NCBI RefSeq assembly: GCF_900636535.1
Contig: NZ_LR134289.1
Coordinates: 4,799,501-4,863,500 of the forward strand
Length of the DNA stretch: 64,000 nt
Origin: Chryseobacterium gleum
Lineage (GTDB): Bacteria > Bacteroidota > Bacteroidia > Flavobacteriales > Weeksellaceae
Direction: 5' to 3'
Shown here: positions 2,974-61,007 of the stretch, one piece after another
Numbering within the stretch: position 1 is the stretch's first letter
Layout: every line of letters begins with the position of its first letter
Notes under the pieces: model-generated
Databases searched by the model: none
What the model was told of the DNA's origin: nothing
Seen by the model: only the letters and a program-made list of their open reading frames with translations
Made by a program: the position numbers and the translations under genes

Positions 2974-3306
2974 ATGAAGCCATTAATATTAGACTATAAA
3001 ATTGTTCGTTCGGAGCCAGATTTTGCCCCCAATTACCAATATGATTCATTAGAATCCCTCAATATGCTGGAAATTGACGGTACAAAGATCCCACTAATTG
3101 ATGCATCAACCGATATTATGGTAGCGTTAGCTACCGTCACAAAAGTTACAGCTGAAAGTGATACTAATGCATTGTCTTTTGATTTAACTACCAGGACTAA
3201 GGTAAGTGGTGAAAAAGATGACTATAATTTAGATTATGTGATGTATACTACAAAAACTCTTGTTAAAATGGAAAATGATGATACACGTACTCCTTATAAC
3301 CAATAA
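2974..3306 (+). CDS. Graspetide (omega-ester peptide) precursor with three core repeats
   Basis: This 110-residue acidic protein has no signal peptide. Its C-terminal half holds three copies of a TxTxVxxExD pattern: residues 54-63 (TVTKVTAESD), 73-82 (TRTKVSGEKD) and 93-102 (TKTLVKMEND), spaced 19-20 residues apart. The second and third are preceded by T and followed by a second D. Thr/Lys donors followed by Glu/Asp acceptors are the hallmark of graspetide cores, whose side chains are joined into ester or amide macrocycles by an ATP-grasp ligase. That ligase is the overlapping next gene. Residues 1-50 would be the leader; I see no microviridin-type PFFARFL motif. Some such precursors are annotated only as hypothetical, so function is inferred from the repeats and the neighbour. 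Confidence 0.72.
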   Translation: MKPLILDYKIVRSEPDFAPNYQYDSLESLNMLEIDGTKIPLIDASTDIMVALATVTKVTAESDTNALSFDLTTRTKVSGEKDDYNLDYVMYTTKTLVKMENDDTRTPYNQ

Positions 3307-4261
3307 AGCAGATGTTACAACTGATTTTGTAGTAAAAAGGCTTAAAGAGAAAAAAATAGAGTTTTACAGACTAAATACTGAAGAGTTAGGTGATAATGTT
3401 GAGGTAAATTTAGATTTTCATAAAGATAATTTTAAAATATTCGACAGAATAACTGGTAATCAAATAGATCTATTGGATATTAAAAGCGTGTATTTTCGCA
3501 GACCAGAACTGCCCAATGATAATCCAGAGCTTAGTAGGGCCGAAAATCAATTTATACGCAATGAGATTAGTTATACATTAGAAGGTATCTATAAAATTTT
3601 AAATTCAGCATACTGGTTAAATAATGTTAAAAATATTAGAAATGCTGAAAATAAAATATTTCAACTGCGATTAGCAAAGAAGATAGGTTTTACCATTGCC
3701 CACAGTTTGATTACAACTAATGCTGGCTCAGCAATGAATTTTTATGAAATGAATGAAGAGGACTGTATTATTAAACCGATTCGTACAGGATTAATATCTG
3801 ATGATGGAAATGAAGAAGCGATCATTTTCACCAATAAAATATACCTCGACAAAAATAATGCTCAGCGTGTAGAAAGATGTCCGACATTTTTCCAAAAGCA
3901 TATAAAAAAGAGAGGAGATATCAGGGTGACTGTAGTGGGAGATAAGGTTTTTTCGGCCTTCATACGCTCACAAGATTCTGACGACTCAAAAGTGGATTGG
4001 AGGGTTAGCCAAGATGGACTAAAACACAGTAATTATACATTACCAGTAGATATTTCAGCTAATTGTATCAATCTGCTGAAAGAGTTGGATTTAAATTTCG
4101 GTGCGATAGATCTCATTTTAAATGAAAATGGTGAATATGTATTCCTTGAAATTAATCCCAATGGCCAGTGGGCATGGATCGAAAAATTGCTTGGTTTAGA
4201 TATTTCGGGTGCTATAGTAAATTTGTTAAAAGATAAAGGTGATGAACGAAAAACTACATAA
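3275..4261 (+). CDS. MvdD-like ATP-grasp ligase (graspetide macrocyclase)
   Basis: The 328-residue protein starts MMIHVLLITNKAD, the usual N-terminus of microviridin-type ligases. ATG 3275 or 3278 is preferred over an upstream TTG at 3260. Motifs include YFRRPE in the N-domain, DCIIKPI in the ATP-binding lobe, DIRVTVVGDKVFSAFIRSQ near residue 215, a DWR motif after it, and the metal-binding FLEINPNGQW near residue 290. The enzyme would phosphorylate Glu/Asp side chains of the precursor core and let Thr/Ser/Lys side chains attack, giving omega-ester or amide rings. It overlaps the precursor gene by about 30 bases, so the two are probably translationally coupled. The family is clear; the substrate follows from context. 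Confidence 0.85.
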   Translation: MMIHVLLITNKADVTTDFVVKRLKEKKIEFYRLNTEELGDNVEVNLDFHKDNFKIFDRITGNQIDLLDIKSVYFRRPELPNDNPELSRAENQFIRNEISYTLEGIYKILNSAYWLNNVKNIRNAENKIFQLRLAKKIGFTIAHSLITTNAGSAMNFYEMNEEDCIIKPIRTGLISDDGNEEAIIFTNKIYLDKNNAQRVERCPTFFQKHIKKRGDIRVTVVGDKVFSAFIRSQDSDDSKVDWRVSQDGLKHSNYTLPVDISANCINLLKELDLNFGAIDLILNENGEYVFLEINPNGQWAWIEKLLGLDISGAIVNLLKDKGDERKTT

Positions 4262-4862
4262 ACTTAGAGAGCTAGTATGGCCGTTGCTTGAAGAGGATAT
4301 TAATAATGACATATCTAATCAGTGTTTAACAGAAGAAGTCGAAGCCGTTGAGGAAAATCCAGTTCTGAAAATTGAGGATGAAAATCTGGATCTTGCATTG
4401 CAATTACAAGGTAAGATATATCAAGAAGAAGATGATCGAAGAAAAGGTACTGAATCCAAAGCAGCTCTATTTATGGGATCTTTAAGTTTGGCTAATACTA
4501 TTGTAATAGGTGCAAATACATTAATATGGGGCAAAGAGATCCCAAGTGGGGTTGTTAAAACTTCGGTGTTTATATCGATCGTTTTAGCAATTTATACACT
4601 CAGAACGGTATGGTTTTCAGTAAAAGTTTTGGAAAGGGGAACCTACCATGTACTAGGTAATGAGGATATAAATATTTCAGGCGATAAAAACAAATACAAA
4701 AGAGACATTATTTCATCATTTTTCAAAATAATAAAGGGTAATGAGGCCGTAATAAATATGAAGGTTTCGCATTTAGTTATGGCGCAAGAATATTACAAGA
4801 GGGCAATGTTTGTTATATGTTTATATGCATTCATGGTTTTCTATTTTTGTTTTTTCCTTTAG
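4242..4862 (+). CDS. Small membrane protein of the graspetide operon
   Basis: The ATG at 4242 lies inside the end of the ligase gene (20-base overlap), so this is a third member of the operon; a GTG at 4239 is a weaker start. The first 60 residues are soluble and acidic. They are followed by a charged DDRRKGTESKAA stretch and two hydrophobic segments near residues 68-92 and 101-125, then a soluble part and a third hydrophobic segment at the extreme C-terminus. The charged helix followed by a close TM pair recalls SLATT-type and cyclic-nucleotide effector membrane modules, but I cannot place it in a family. It could be an exporter component, an immunity protein or a membrane effector; no ABC exporter is present. 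Confidence 0.6.
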   Translation: MNEKLHKLRELVWPLLEEDINNDISNQCLTEEVEAVEENPVLKIEDENLDLALQLQGKIYQEEDDRRKGTESKAALFMGSLSLANTIVIGANTLIWGKEIPSGVVKTSVFISIVLAIYTLRTVWFSVKVLERGTYHVLGNEDINISGDKNKYKRDIISSFFKIIKGNEAVINMKVSHLVMAQEYYKRAMFVICLYAFMVFYFCFFL

Positions 4863-57225: not shown

Positions 57226-58065
57226 ATGTCAAAAAATAAGATGGTCACGCCATTGACCTATTATGGCGGAAAGCAACAGCTGGCCAGGATCATTATTCCG
57301 CTTATTCCACCCCATTATACCTACGTAGAGCCGTTTGTGGGAGGAGGCGCAATTTTTTGGTCGAAACCGAGATCTGAGGTTGAGGTGATCAACGATTACA
57401 ACCGTGAGCTGATCAACTTCTATGAGATGGTGAAAAATCAGTTTGTTGAACTGGAAAAAATGATAAGGATCACACTACACAGCAGGTCGCTCCATAGTGA
57501 TGCGCTTGTGATCTATAACAATCCCCATCTCTTTGACAGATTACAACGGGCCTGGGCAGTCTGGGTTTTATGTAACCAGTCTTTCAGCGCAAAGATCGGC
57601 GATTCATGGGGTTACGATGTACGGAATCAGACTTCTTCCAAAAGATTGAGCAATAAGCGTGCGTCATTCTGTGAAGATTATGCAATACGCCTTCAAAATG
57701 TTCAGATCGAAAATACAGATGCCATTAGGATCATCAATTCACGCGATCACGAAAAGGCTTTTCACTACTGTGATCCGCCTTATTTTAACAGTGACTGCGG
57801 TCATTACGATGGGTATAGCAAACATGATTTTGAATCTCTGCTATTGTGTCTATCCAATACGAAGGGAAAGTTTCTTTTGAGCAGCTATCCTAGTGATATC
57901 CTGAACAAATTCAGCCGCGATCTTGACTGGCATACTGTCAAAATGCAGAAAGAGGTGCTGGTCGATAAACATTCGGGAAAAGTACCCAAGAAAAAGATCG
58001 AAGTACTTACCGCCAACTATGACCTGCATATCGTGCAGGGAACGCTAAACTTTAAATCATACTGA
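57226..58065 (+). CDS. Dam-type N6-adenine DNA methyltransferase
   Basis: The 279-residue protein has LTYYGGKQQLARIIIPLIPPHYTYVEPFVGGGAIFW (SAM-binding) and the catalytic YCDPPYFNS near residue 182, the alpha-group order of Dam/MboIIA-type enzymes. No restriction gene is adjacent. It lies between traE and traF, which are normally consecutive. It could modify ICE DNA so that the transferred strand survives host restriction, or act as a regulator; the target site is unknown. Confidence 0.9.
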   Translation: MSKNKMVTPLTYYGGKQQLARIIIPLIPPHYTYVEPFVGGGAIFWSKPRSEVEVINDYNRELINFYEMVKNQFVELEKMIRITLHSRSLHSDALVIYNNPHLFDRLQRAWAVWVLCNQSFSAKIGDSWGYDVRNQTSSKRLSNKRASFCEDYAIRLQNVQIENTDAIRIINSRDHEKAFHYCDPPYFNSDCGHYDGYSKHDFESLLLCLSNTKGKFLLSSYPSDILNKFSRDLDWHTVKMQKEVLVDKHSGKVPKKKIEVLTANYDLHIVQGTLNFKSY

Positions 58066-58066
58066 A

Positions 58067-58435
58067 ATGAGAACCTGGAATATCAATAAGGGTATCGGCT
58101 GTACAGTTGAATTTAAAGGTTTGAAAGCGCAGTATCTCTTCGGATTTGCCGGAGGATTGTTATTGGTCCTGATCCTGGTTATGGTGCTGTACATGGCTGA
58201 TGTAAATATGTATATCTGCCTTTCGGTCGGCTGTATTTCTGCATCGCTGATTGTTTGGAAAACTTTCAGTCTGAACAACAAGTACGGTGAACATGGGCTG
58301 ATGAAGCTAGGTGCAAAAAGAAAGCATCCACAATTTATCATCACCCGTAAACCTGTCCAATCTTACCTTAAATACCCAGTTGCAAAAGGTGAGAAAATCC
58401 AAAATTTTAACACTAAATCTTCAAGGCTATCATGA
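58067..58435 (+). CDS. traF: TraF (DUF4133) conjugation protein
   Basis: The 122-residue protein (MRTWNINKGIGCTVEFKGLKAQYLFGFAGGLLLVLILVMVLYMAD...NNKYGEHGLMKLGAKRKHP) is DUF4133, a VirB3-like inner-membrane component with two close membrane segments. Its stop overlaps the traG start by four bases (ATGA). Confidence 0.9.
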   Translation: MRTWNINKGIGCTVEFKGLKAQYLFGFAGGLLLVLILVMVLYMADVNMYICLSVGCISASLIVWKTFSLNNKYGEHGLMKLGAKRKHPQFIITRKPVQSYLKYPVAKGEKIQNFNTKSSRLS

Positions 58436-59799
58436 GAAATATCTCTAAAACAACTACTTTAGAAAGCCGTTTTCCTCTCCTTGCAATTGAGAACGATTGT
58501 ATTATATCGAAAGAAGGAGACCTTACCGTGTGTTTCCGTGTAAGGCTACCGGAAATTTTTACGGTGGGCACGGATGTGTACGAATCCATTCATTCCTCAT
58601 GGAGTAAAGCGATCAAGACTTTGCCGGATTATAGTATCCTGCACAAACAGGACTGGTATCTAAAGGAAAACTACCAGCCGGATCTTGAAAAAAGTGAACA
58701 CAGTTTTTTGTCACGTTCTTTCCAGCTGCATTTTAATGAGCGGCCGTTTCTGAACCACTACTGCTATATTTTTCTGACGAAAACGACAAAGGCACGGATG
58801 CAGTCCCAGAGCAATTTTAGCAGCTTGTGCAAGGGAAATCTTGTTCCCAAAGAAATAAAGGATAAGGAAGGAATGCGTCGTTTCCTAGAATCGGTAAGCC
58901 AGTTCCAGCGTATCATCAATGACAGTGGTCATATAACAATGGATCAGCTGAGTGAAGCTGAAATATTGGGGAGCGAAATGAAAACCGGAATCCTTGAACA
59001 GTATTTTACACTGTCACGTGATGCCAATCCCGTTCTGCAGGATATGGCTCTGGGAGCAGAGGAACTTAGGATCGGAAGTAAGAGGATGGTACTTCATACC
59101 TTATCCAGTACAGACGATCTTCCCGGAGCTGTTTCAGACTGCCATCGCTATGATAGGCTTTCCACAGATCGCAGTGACTGTATGTTGTCTTTTGCCAGTC
59201 CTGTGGGACTGATGCTCAGTTGCGACCATATCTATAACCAGTACCTGTTCATCGATAATAGTTCTGAAAACCTCAAAAAATTTGAGAAGTCCGCCAGAAA
59301 TATGCACTCATTGGCACGTTATAGCCGGGCGAACCAGATCAATAAAGAATGGATAGAGCGTTATCTGAATGAAGCACACTCCCACGGTTCACCATCGATC
59401 AGGGCCCATTATAATGTATTTGCGTGGAGTGAAGACCGACAGGATCTGCGTAATCTGAAAAATGATGTCGGAAGTGCACTTGCTCTTATGGAATGTAAAC
59501 CCCGTCATAACACAGTAGATGCCGCCACTCTATATTGGGCGGGAATTCCGGGCAATGCCGGCGATTTTCCAGCCGAAGAATCCTTTTACACTTTCATCGA
59601 ACCGGCATTGTGTTTTTTTACGCAGGAGACCAACTATCAGGATTCACTTTCTCCTTTTGGGATCAAGCTTGCGGACAGGCTGACTGGCAAACCTGTGCAT
59701 TTGGATATCAGTGACTTGCCGATGAAAAAGGGGATCACGAGCAATAGAAACCGTTTCATTTTAGGGCCATCTGGGGGTTGGCGGGCTATTCTTAATTGA
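58432..59799 (+). CDS. traG: TraG conjugation ATPase, N-terminal part up to the interrupted Walker A
   Basis: The 455-codon frame gives the N-domain of TraG (VirB4-like). It reaches NRNRFILGPSG (last shared Gly codon GGG at 59773-59775), then reads eight foreign residues (GWRAILN and so on) to TGA at 59797-59799. In intact relatives the text continues SGKSFFTN. The rest of TraG is open from 59826 in a frame shifted by two. If the intervening 50 nt are skipped in translation, TraG has its normal length, about 842 residues. Otherwise this ICE cannot energise transfer with its own TraG. Confidence 0.85.
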   Translation: MRNISKTTTLESRFPLLAIENDCIISKEGDLTVCFRVRLPEIFTVGTDVYESIHSSWSKAIKTLPDYSILHKQDWYLKENYQPDLEKSEHSFLSRSFQLHFNERPFLNHYCYIFLTKTTKARMQSQSNFSSLCKGNLVPKEIKDKEGMRRFLESVSQFQRIINDSGHITMDQLSEAEILGSEMKTGILEQYFTLSRDANPVLQDMALGAEELRIGSKRMVLHTLSSTDDLPGAVSDCHRYDRLSTDRSDCMLSFASPVGLMLSCDHIYNQYLFIDNSSENLKKFEKSARNMHSLARYSRANQINKEWIERYLNEAHSHGSPSIRAHYNVFAWSEDRQDLRNLKNDVGSALALMECKPRHNTVDAATLYWAGIPGNAGDFPAEESFYTFIEPALCFFTQETNYQDSLSPFGIKLADRLTGKPVHLDISDLPMKKGITSNRNRFILGPSGGWRAILN

Positions 59800-59825
59800 G
59801 TAGCCCGCCAGCCCACCCAAAAAAT
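59776..59825 (+). other. 50-nt GC-rich hairpin insert inside the TraG Walker A motif
   Basis: Between Gly codon GGG (59773-59775) and Gly codon GGA (59826-59828) lie exactly 50 nt that have no counterpart in TraG. GGGTTGGCGGGCTA (59775-59788) pairs with TAGCCCGCCAGCCC (59801-59814) in a 14-bp stem with one G-U pair and a 12-nt loop holding the stop TGA. Skipping from the first Gly to the second gives P-S-G-S-G-K-S, the exact Walker A of TraG. The design (matching Gly codons, 50-nt gap, hairpin, early stop) recalls phage T4 gene 60 bypassing. An IS scar with a TGG duplication is the main alternative. Confidence 0.6.
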
Positions 59826-61007
59826 GGAAGTGGAAAATCATTCTTCACCAATCATATGGTGAGACAGTATTATGAGCAAGGAACTCATGTGCTATTAGTA
59901 GATACGGGTAATTCTTATCAGGGGCTTTGCGAACTGATCAAAGGTAAGACTAAGGGAAAAGACGGGGTTTATTTCACCTATACGGAAGATAACCCTATCT
60001 CGTTCAATCCTTTTTTTACCGAAGATAATGTCTTTGATATCGAGAAAAGAGAAAGTATCAAGACCTTGATCCTGACTTTATGGAAAAGGGATGATGAAGC
60101 ACCAAAGCGAAGCGAAGAAGTAGCATTGTCCAATGCAGTCGCAGGATATATCGAAAGGATTAAAAACAGTAATGAGATACCCTGTTTTAATGGATTCTAC
60201 GAATACGTCAAAGGGGATTACAAAAAAGTCCTTCAGGACAAGGAAGTTCGGGAGAAAGATTTTGATCTGGCGAACTTTTTAAATGTTCTTGAACCCTATT
60301 ACAAAGGTGGTGAATACGATTACTTATTGAACTCAGAAAAAGAGCTTGATTTGCTTAATAAGAGATTTATTGTCTTTGAAATTGATGCGATCAAAGATCA
60401 CAAAATCCTGTTTCCTGTGGTTACGATCATCATTATGGAGGTCTTTATCAACAAGATGCGTCGGTTAAAAGGTATCCGTAAGATGATTTTGATAGAGGAG
60501 GCTTGGAAGGCAATCGCTAAGGAAGGAATGGCTGAATATATCCGCTATTTATTTAAGACCGTCAGGAAATTTTTCGGTGAGGCGATTGTGGTCACGCAGG
60601 AAGTCGATGATATCATACAGTCTCCCATAGTCAAGGAAACAATCATCAACAACAGTGACTGCAAGATACTACTCGATCAGCGGAAATACGCCAATAAATT
60701 TGACGAGATCCAGAATATGCTCGGGCTTACAGAACGGGAAAAATCGCAGATACTTTCGATCAATCAGGACAATGATCCGAACCGGAAATATAAGGAAGTA
60801 TGGATAGGACTTGGAGGAACGCATTCAGCGGTCTATGCGACAGAAGTGAGCGAGCAGGAGTATCTGGCATACACCACGGAGGAATCGGAGAAAATGGAAG
60901 TGATGGATCTAGCGCATGAAATGGGCGGGGATGTTGAAGCCGCCATAAAAAAAATCTCACTGAAAAAGATCAAAGGGTTAACGCCCGGCGATCATCCCAA
61001 TAATTAA
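59796..61007 (+). CDS. traG: TraG conjugation ATPase, C-terminal part
   Basis: True TraG similarity starts at 59826 (GSGKSFFTNHMVRQYYEQGTHVLLVDTGNSYQGLC) and runs to the stop with Walker B RKMILIEEAWKAIAKEGM, FGEAIVVTQEVDDI and NNSDCKILLDQRK, all of the VirB4-like motor. No credible start codon in this frame exists near the beginning: the ATG at 59824 is out of frame and only a TTG at 59796 in the hairpin loop is available. Independent expression of this piece is thus unlikely, which favours bypass, or loss of function. Confidence 0.85.
   Translation: MSSPPAHPKNGSGKSFFTNHMVRQYYEQGTHVLLVDTGNSYQGLCELIKGKTKGKDGVYFTYTEDNPISFNPFFTEDNVFDIEKRESIKTLILTLWKRDDEAPKRSEEVALSNAVAGYIERIKNSNEIPCFNGFYEYVKGDYKKVLQDKEVREKDFDLANFLNVLEPYYKGGEYDYLLNSEKELDLLNKRFIVFEIDAIKDHKILFPVVTIIIMEVFINKMRRLKGIRKMILIEEAWKAIAKEGMAEYIRYLFKTVRKFFGEAIVVTQEVDDIIQSPIVKETIINNSDCKILLDQRKYANKFDEIQNMLGLTEREKSQILSINQDNDPNRKYKEVWIGLGGTHSAVYATEVSEQEYLAYTTEESEKMEVMDLAHEMGGDVEAAIKKISLKKIKGLTPGDHPNN

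Follow-up and report, generated by a model that had tools for sequence, protein, structure and literature searches.

The split traG gene and its insert

The stretch of 64,000 nt analysed here (the window; Chryseobacterium gleum assembly GCF_900636535.1, contig NZ_LR134289.1, positions 4,799,501 to 4,863,500 of the forward strand) contains at 58432-61007 the traG gene of a Bacteroidota integrative conjugative element, which encodes a VirB4-type conjugation ATPase and is followed by traJ and traK. The Walker A motif of this traG is split by 50 nt located between two Gly codons, GGG (59773-59775) and GGA (59826-59828), and it is this insert, probably a programmed translational bypassing element, that is the subject of the present work. 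An original prediction made from the window held that the upstream frame stops seven codons past G-P-S-G, and that S-G-K-S resumes 50 nt downstream, in another frame and after a Gly codon. Both statements were borne out, as the upstream frame (58432-59799) reads L-G-P-S-G up to the GGG codon and continues for seven codons to a TGA at 59797-59799, while S-G-K-S begins at 59829, directly after the GGA and in a frame that differs from that of the upstream half.

The upstream half of traG (58432-59775; plus strand, as are all traG features given below) comprises codons 1-448, the last being the proposed take-off codon, and covers positions 1-448 of the 829 in model TIGR03783 (823 bits), DUF3875 and the first 39 positions of the Pfam domain P-loop_TraG. 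The downstream half (59829-61007) runs from S-G-K-S to its stop and covers TIGR03783 positions 449-826 and P-loop_TraG positions 40-410. The halves adjoin exactly in both models (448/449 and 39/40), and each scores far above the TIGR03783 cut-off. The closest solved relative of an intact TraG is 4ag5, a VirB4-like ATPase with which the Walker A motifs align, and close intact relatives mostly consist of one frame of about 800-880 amino acids (aa). Bypassing presupposes a protein encoded in two parts, with a non-coding stretch between them that is beyond any simple frameshift, and this is the arrangement found.

Most of the coding gap (59776-59825) is taken up by a predicted hairpin (59773-59817) with arms at 59773-59791 and 59798-59817, position 59815 being unpaired, and a loop at 59792-59797. 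It had originally been described as a GC-rich hairpin of 14 bp; it is GC-rich, but longer, with 17 continuous pairs (wobble included) between 59775-59791 and 59798-59814 and two more at its foot. In the predicted folds these foot pairs include the take-off codon, as would be expected of a bypass hairpin. A stretch of 151 nt folds with a z-score of -4.36, and none of 200 shuffled sequences folded as well. The gap had also been said to carry an in-frame stop in the loop, and the TGA at 59797-59799 is such a stop; it is not the only one, since TAA (59793), TGA (59797) and TAG (59801) close all three frames within 59793-59803, as in each of the 11 distinct gaps found, the TAG being itself part of the arm pattern used for the hairpin searches.

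Occurrence of the insert

The insert was found at the identical traG codon, between GGG and GGA, at 23 sites in 20 Bacteroidota genomes (several searches collated by contig, with sites seen twice merged). The hosts include Chryseobacterium, Sphingobacterium, Parapedobacter, Niabella, Myroides, Flavobacterium and a metagenome-assembled genome of the Chitinophagaceae. A protein search of 59 genomes with the downstream half returned frames of 400-403 aa, and not of about 840, in three genomes (G025, G010 and, twice, G032), and further split copies came from a search of 173 genomes of the genus. The hairpin arms were present in 10 of these 173 genomes in 12 copies, all 12 in traG. In a named genome collection they occurred at 32 loci, and all 17 of the Bacteroidota loci were at this traG codon; the other 15, from Planctomycetota, Actinomycetota, Pseudomonadota and others, are hairpins without relation to it and were not counted. 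The arm searches demanded ten or nine bases per arm, so elements with other arms would escape them; the protein searches, which carried no arm condition, also recovered 7 of the 11 distinct gaps. Copies in several different genes, as with byp elements, were not seen, the arm searches having found the Bacteroidota copies in traG alone. A dispersed repeat is likewise ruled out, there being a single copy in the genome of the window and, among the Bacteroidota loci found, copies elsewhere only in traG.

The element is rare, being present in 2 of 395 genomes sampled from the phylum. When 386 genomes of the order were searched with model R1, two strong places were obtained, both of them split traG genes (G000 and G067), and 86 of the genomes had some match at E up to 1, the weak ones not having been inspected singly. 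Phage records did not match the element, and plasmid records matched it with 26-base pieces only; relatives of traG are present in the latter, their frames unchecked. A viral origin was considered and rejected, because the 16 viral contigs that have the arms differ in loops and surroundings. Thirteen viral contigs (L085-L088, L091-L098 and L100) share a hairpin, TTGGCGGGCTA, shortly before an ATG, which is unrelated to traG and is perhaps a regulatory or terminator hairpin of phages.

Both halves are of full length at 19 of the 23 sites, and at one more (L038) the upstream half is cut by the edge of the locus. The split traG genes of L004 (Chryseobacterium) and L034 (Sphingobacterium multivorum) are identical in both halves, and the upstream half of L055 (Flavobacterium) is identical to theirs, which indicates that elements carrying the split gene have crossed between families. 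In strain JUb7 (G170) the sole TraG match is the split gene (11 of 12 candidates scored). Genome G000 carries, in addition to the split traG, four or more others whose frames are open over 798-840 aa, suggesting that more than one conjugative element is likely present. A different traG, at G115:C22:728436-731947, is interrupted close to codon 227 of its downstream half, the two pieces lying about 2.4 kb apart, possibly because of a larger insertion.

Conservation of the halves, the ends and the landing context

Both halves of traG are under purifying selection. The ratio of nonsynonymous to synonymous substitution rates (dN/dS) has a median of 0.036 over 34 usable pairs of upstream halves and of 0.038 over 33 usable pairs of downstream halves, and does not exceed 0.11. 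The 16 rows give 120 pairs in all, and those not used were either saturated or too similar; L059 and L064 count as a single site, and between clades silent sites are saturated. The relaxed selection of a pseudogene was thus not seen. When the window is compared with L003 and L004, the insert with its take-off codon shows 98-100% identity and the flanks 86-94%; for L005 and L030 the corresponding values are 89% and 71-78%. An insert better conserved than its flanks, together with the low dN/dS, is not the behaviour of a dead insertion, and the comparison of traG among related elements therefore favours a bypass element over a broken gene. It is the sequence of the hairpin, not merely its pairing, that is conserved: among 11 distinct sequences 15 of the 19 pairs are invariant and pairs are kept in 98.6% of 208 cells, a sameness which, to the detriment of the bypass interpretation, was partly imposed by the arm pattern in the named collection (4 of the 11 gaps).

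The ends of the gap are constant and its length is not. The proposed take-off codon is GGG and the proposed landing codon GGA in all 28 locus rows, with gaps of 50 nt in 17 rows, 47 in 7, 46 in 2 and 49 in 2 (the rows overlap, some being one site found in two collections). The flank pattern demanded G-P-x-G and GG-S-G-K, so that the codon at each end had to begin with GG and any third letter was allowed; the 29 loci recovered through the hairpin alone satisfied it without exception. Lengths leaving remainders of 1 and 2 modulo 3 between constant ends are what is expected if landing resets the frame. The landing codon is also the first GG past the hairpin, the tail of the gap being without GG in 11 of 11 distinct gaps, so that in any frame the first Gly codon offered to a released tRNA-Gly would be the correct one. 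The Gly anticodons recognised by ARAGORN were UCC (three genes) and GCC (two genes), with no CCC among 84 tRNA matches and their surroundings; the first tRNA look scored 150 of 396 candidates, and a gene may have been missed. With no tRNA-Gly(CCC) among the tRNA genes found, tRNA-Gly(UCC) should read GGG by wobble and GGA exactly, and one tRNA would hence serve for take-off and landing, by wobble rather than letter for letter.

Directly after the landing codon, silent sites are nearly frozen over the first 7 to 12 codons (59829-59864). Silent codon identity between clades of split copies is 0.844 in the first 15 codons after landing, as against 0.22-0.54 in other 15-codon windows of both halves; pairs of intact traG genes give 0.425 in the same 15 codons and 0.42-0.56 elsewhere (467 pairs of 60-88% identity). 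For clades A and B together, the first seven codons after landing have 0.058 silent changes per silent site, compared with 0.780 overall, the lowest of 339 windows, and in three groups of intact genes the same window ranks 159, 331 and 219 of 339. Within this region, 15 nt after the landing codon, a second hairpin, TTCACC/GGTGAG (59844-59863), can form with six possible pairs. Each of the 5 distinct split sequences has all six, as do 6 of 31 near intact and 10 of 50 intact ones; the distinct sequences are few, and we take this as a hint of a second stem. A long-range pairing of upstream codons with the landing site was part of the best fold in 9 of 18 distinct sequences (read by eye) and was dismissed as not constant. 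Eight codons before the end of the upstream half, R is found in 26 of 28 split rows and K in all 46 near intact rows.

Bypassing and its alternatives

An exact joint, constant end codons, a gap of free length with stops in every frame, a hairpin at take-off and a conserved landing context all fit bypassing, and the insert is probably, judging from its sequence, a programmed element of this type. Ribosomes would translate traG as far as Gly448 (GGG) and would be stalled by the hairpin that begins at this codon. The peptidyl-tRNA-Gly would then release GGG, the gap of 46-50 nt would be passed undecoded, and the tRNA would re-pair at the first Gly codon past the hairpin, GGA, with decoding resuming at S-G-K-S in any frame. 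The stall, the passage of the gap, the role of the downstream sequence and a full-length TraG are what we infer from this arrangement. The bypass element put forward in the original prediction has thus gained from the conserved insert and landing context, the purifying selection, the GGG and GGA codons around a variable gap and the identical split genes in different families; it is still a predicted one, and rivals to it remain. If the interpretation is true, a conjugation machine depends on a recoding step, such genes look broken yet are not, and the 23 natural copies, with their defined ends and differing gap lengths, could be set against relatives that lack the insert and tried in reporters to derive the rules by which take-off and landing occur.

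A number of observations weigh against bypassing. A stop directly behind the take-off codon is missing, the first in-frame stop lying 24 or 27 nt from the start of that codon, and the take-off and landing codons agree in two of three letters. No nascent-peptide signal was recognised upstream, where no search aimed at a KKYK-like signal was made. Two-sided compensatory change is absent from the hairpin in the 11 distinct sequences. The silent sites before take-off are no more than mildly conserved (rank 37 of 434 for clades A and B). Taken alone, clade B is not extreme after landing (its rank is 9 of 339 over 7 codons and 36 of 334 over 12); clade A alone has zero silent changes in the 7 codons, tied, at rank 7 of 339 (12 codons, rank 1 of 334), and clade C alone also has zero, tied, at rank 23 of 339 (12 codons, rank 13 of 334). 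The frozen flank may come in part from co-conversion when the insert moved. Clades A and B form one group in the upstream tree (support 99/94) and keep the flank frozen although their other silent sites have diverged, which argues against co-conversion as the explanation of all of it. Further breaks in traG are present at three of the 23 sites (L035, L055 and L101), and some genomes, that of the window included, also have an intact traG, so that help in trans is possible there.

The main rival to bypassing is reinitiation, in which traG would now be two genes, translation would end at the TGA of the loop and begin anew at an overlapping TTG, and TraG would be made of two chains. The TTG at 59796-59798 overlaps the TGA at 59797-59799, and no other in-frame start candidate for the downstream half precedes Walker A. 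Among the 11 distinct gaps, 9 have the TTG in the downstream frame, at 27 or 30 nt, which is a further point against bypassing and qualifies the earlier statement that no good downstream start exists; selection on both halves would suit two chains equally. Against reinitiation, CTG replaces the TTG in C. pennae (L036), and in ZHDP1 (L059/L064) the TTG is out of frame, the downstream frame lacks any start ahead of Walker A, and a TAG closes it 24 nt ahead of landing. Each of these cases comes from one assembly, and that of ZHDP1, differing by one A within a run of A, could be an error. The restart site would moreover sit in the loop of a very stable hairpin, and the P-loop would be divided between two chains, the first Gly of GxxxxGKS being on no downstream half (11 gaps, read by eye). 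We therefore consider two separate chains unlikely.

Removal of the gap from RNA or from DNA would yield the same protein as bypassing. Removal from the RNA before translation, by a splicing-like reaction or by cleavage and ligation, would accord with the exact joint between the halves, and the sequence constraint, which affects both arms and some 20 nt downstream, is what a nuclease or an RNA site might require. The insert is, however, far too short for a self-splicing intron, no Rfam family reached its cut-off in window positions 59600-60000, and no processing gene was recognised among the open reading frames (ORFs) upstream of traG in 12 loci, where no systematic search was made; this route appears improbable. 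Slightly more doubtful again is removal from the DNA in some cells or at transfer, whether as an on/off switch or as a mobile insertion with exact excision. The insert occurs at one codon in separate traG lineages and the flanks show local transfer, so something does move it. It is retained, on the other hand, in all copies compared, including those 100% identical across families, which is a weak argument as most copies were found by its presence and the intact genes are not close twins. The repeat at the ends is just GG in some copies (L040 and L048). The excision scar of an insertion sequence, offered as an alternative in the original prediction, fits poorly for the same shortness of the end repeat and because the insert is kept where silent sites are saturated. 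A dead insertion, with traG a pseudogene that happens to hold a hairpin, could account for the further breaks at L035, L055 and L101 and is hard to hold for most copies, given a dN/dS near 0.04 in both halves, the full length of both at 19 of the 23 sites and a gap better conserved than its flanks, and we regard it as very improbable indeed.

Origin and movement of the insert

A phylogenetic tree was built for each half of the gene, leaving out the codons next to the insert, namely the first 35 of the downstream half (63 rows) and the last 25 of the upstream half (61 rows). The programs gave warnings of long outgroup branches and of a base composition that is uneven for some rows. In both trees the split copies fall into at least two distant traG groups, and a single clade of split copies was rejected (p-AU 8.4e-10 in the downstream and 1.5e-4 in the upstream tree). 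The shortest histories take three changes per tree, of which well-supported branches force three and two, respectively. In the downstream tree the intact L066 joins the group of clades A and B, the inner order of which is open.

Along most of traG, clade C (the Sphingobacterium type) lies near intact genes such as L113, with a likeness of 0.83-0.86 overall, which falls to 0.67-0.73 from -60 to +90. Its likeness to the window, in turn, is 0.97 and 0.90 in the first 60 nt as against 0.68-0.76, the 30-nt windows used being noisy and some distant windows dipping too. Split copies in separate lineages, together with this local likeness of the flanks, indicate that the insert and a short flank have moved between traG lineages, which may have occurred by gene conversion or homing. 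Movement between lineages, which is also a feature of byp elements, was found here between copies of traG only. It is conceivable, and we propose it tentatively, that this is a site-specific mobile bacterial bypassing element, that is, a hairpin cassette with stops in three frames and its own landing context, which homes into one Walker A codon of the conjugation ATPases of Bacteroidota integrative elements and which, through ribosome bypassing, is harmless or is put to use in control. The insert of T4 gene 60 may have protected against nuclease cleavage by a homing endonuclease (PMC5009743), and by analogy a similar protective origin would explain the choice of a conserved motif.

Other features of the window

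A D12-class adenine DNA methyltransferase (PF02086) is encoded at 57226-58065, between small tra genes and just upstream of traG. It was considered as a part of the system and rejected, since besides the window it was found only at L055, being absent from the other 11 loci whose upstream ORFs were compared and, by motif, from all further loci. Further away, a block of cargo on the minus strand (25491-49176) has ORFs resembling phosphoesterases, a ClC channel, a pyrophosphatase, an enolase, a MutS-like pair, a P-type ATPase, a resistance-nodulation-division (RND) efflux trio, a two-component system and a universal stress protein; these names were judged by eye except for RND, for which the best models were below cut-off. 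A large ORF at 1-2763 looks like a STAND-type defence NTPase, and another nearby, at 3260-4862, like an ATP-grasp ligase accompanied by a small membrane ORF (both by eye). In G000 there are two clusters of densely packed tRNA genes that serve many amino acids, one of 4 genes at C1:4375600-4376100 (L174) and one of 17 at 4387500-4390500 (L173), perhaps derived from a phage or plasmid.

Comparison with known systems

A literature search of titles and abstracts, with most subscription journals outside its reach, returned nothing on bypassing in Bacteroidota traG, and Prevotella topA, considered as a bypass case, was not used because the literature looked at gave nothing on it. Bypassing of tens of nucleotides is described as established for T4 gene 60 and for yeast mitochondria, the other bacterial cases being likely or unfollowed (PMC5009743). 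In the adhesin gene of Prevotella loescheii a hop of 29 nt was reported that, according to the same source, was not pursued further (PMC5009743); compared by that description, it resembles the traG insert in being a hop over a block of nucleotides in the Bacteroidota and differs in its length and in the gene concerned. The terminase of Streptomyces phage Hau3 is a likely case of bypassing that may involve a UUA codon (PMC5009743). Like traG it would be a bypass in a bacterial mobile element, but its own gap is much shorter, and the relevant part of that source describes no such hairpin.

As members of the TIGR03783 TraG family, both halves of the gene are unexceptional, and it is the interruption inside Walker A that sets it apart. 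The byp elements of yeast mitochondria are known for their hairpin shape and mobility; unlike them, the traG insert is bacterial and GC-rich, and in the searches made it is confined to one gene and one site, with no dispersed copies found. Common to both are short inserts in otherwise conserved genes, the mitochondria of Magnusiomyces capitatus having bypassed inserts at 81 positions in 12 of 15 genes (PMC5009743).

T4 gene 60 has a stem-loop at take-off and a gap of 50 nt bounded by GGA codons, and landing is aided by a 3' stem-loop located where ORF2 starts (PMC11194080). The traG insert shares with it a gap of 50 nt (46-50 nt among copies), Gly codons at both ends, a take-off hairpin and stops in the gap (PMC11194080, PMC5009743), as well as a conserved sequence and a possible stem-loop just past landing (PMC11194080). 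It departs from gene 60 in going from GGG to GGA rather than from GGA to GGA, in having neither a stop behind take-off nor a recognised nascent-peptide signal, in a hairpin of 17-19 pairs that fills most of the gap, and in lying in a conjugative element of the chromosome, where it occupies the same codon in many species. With no stop directly behind take-off and no known nascent-peptide signal, the split traG is best compared to a variant of the gene 60 type rather than to a proven member of it.

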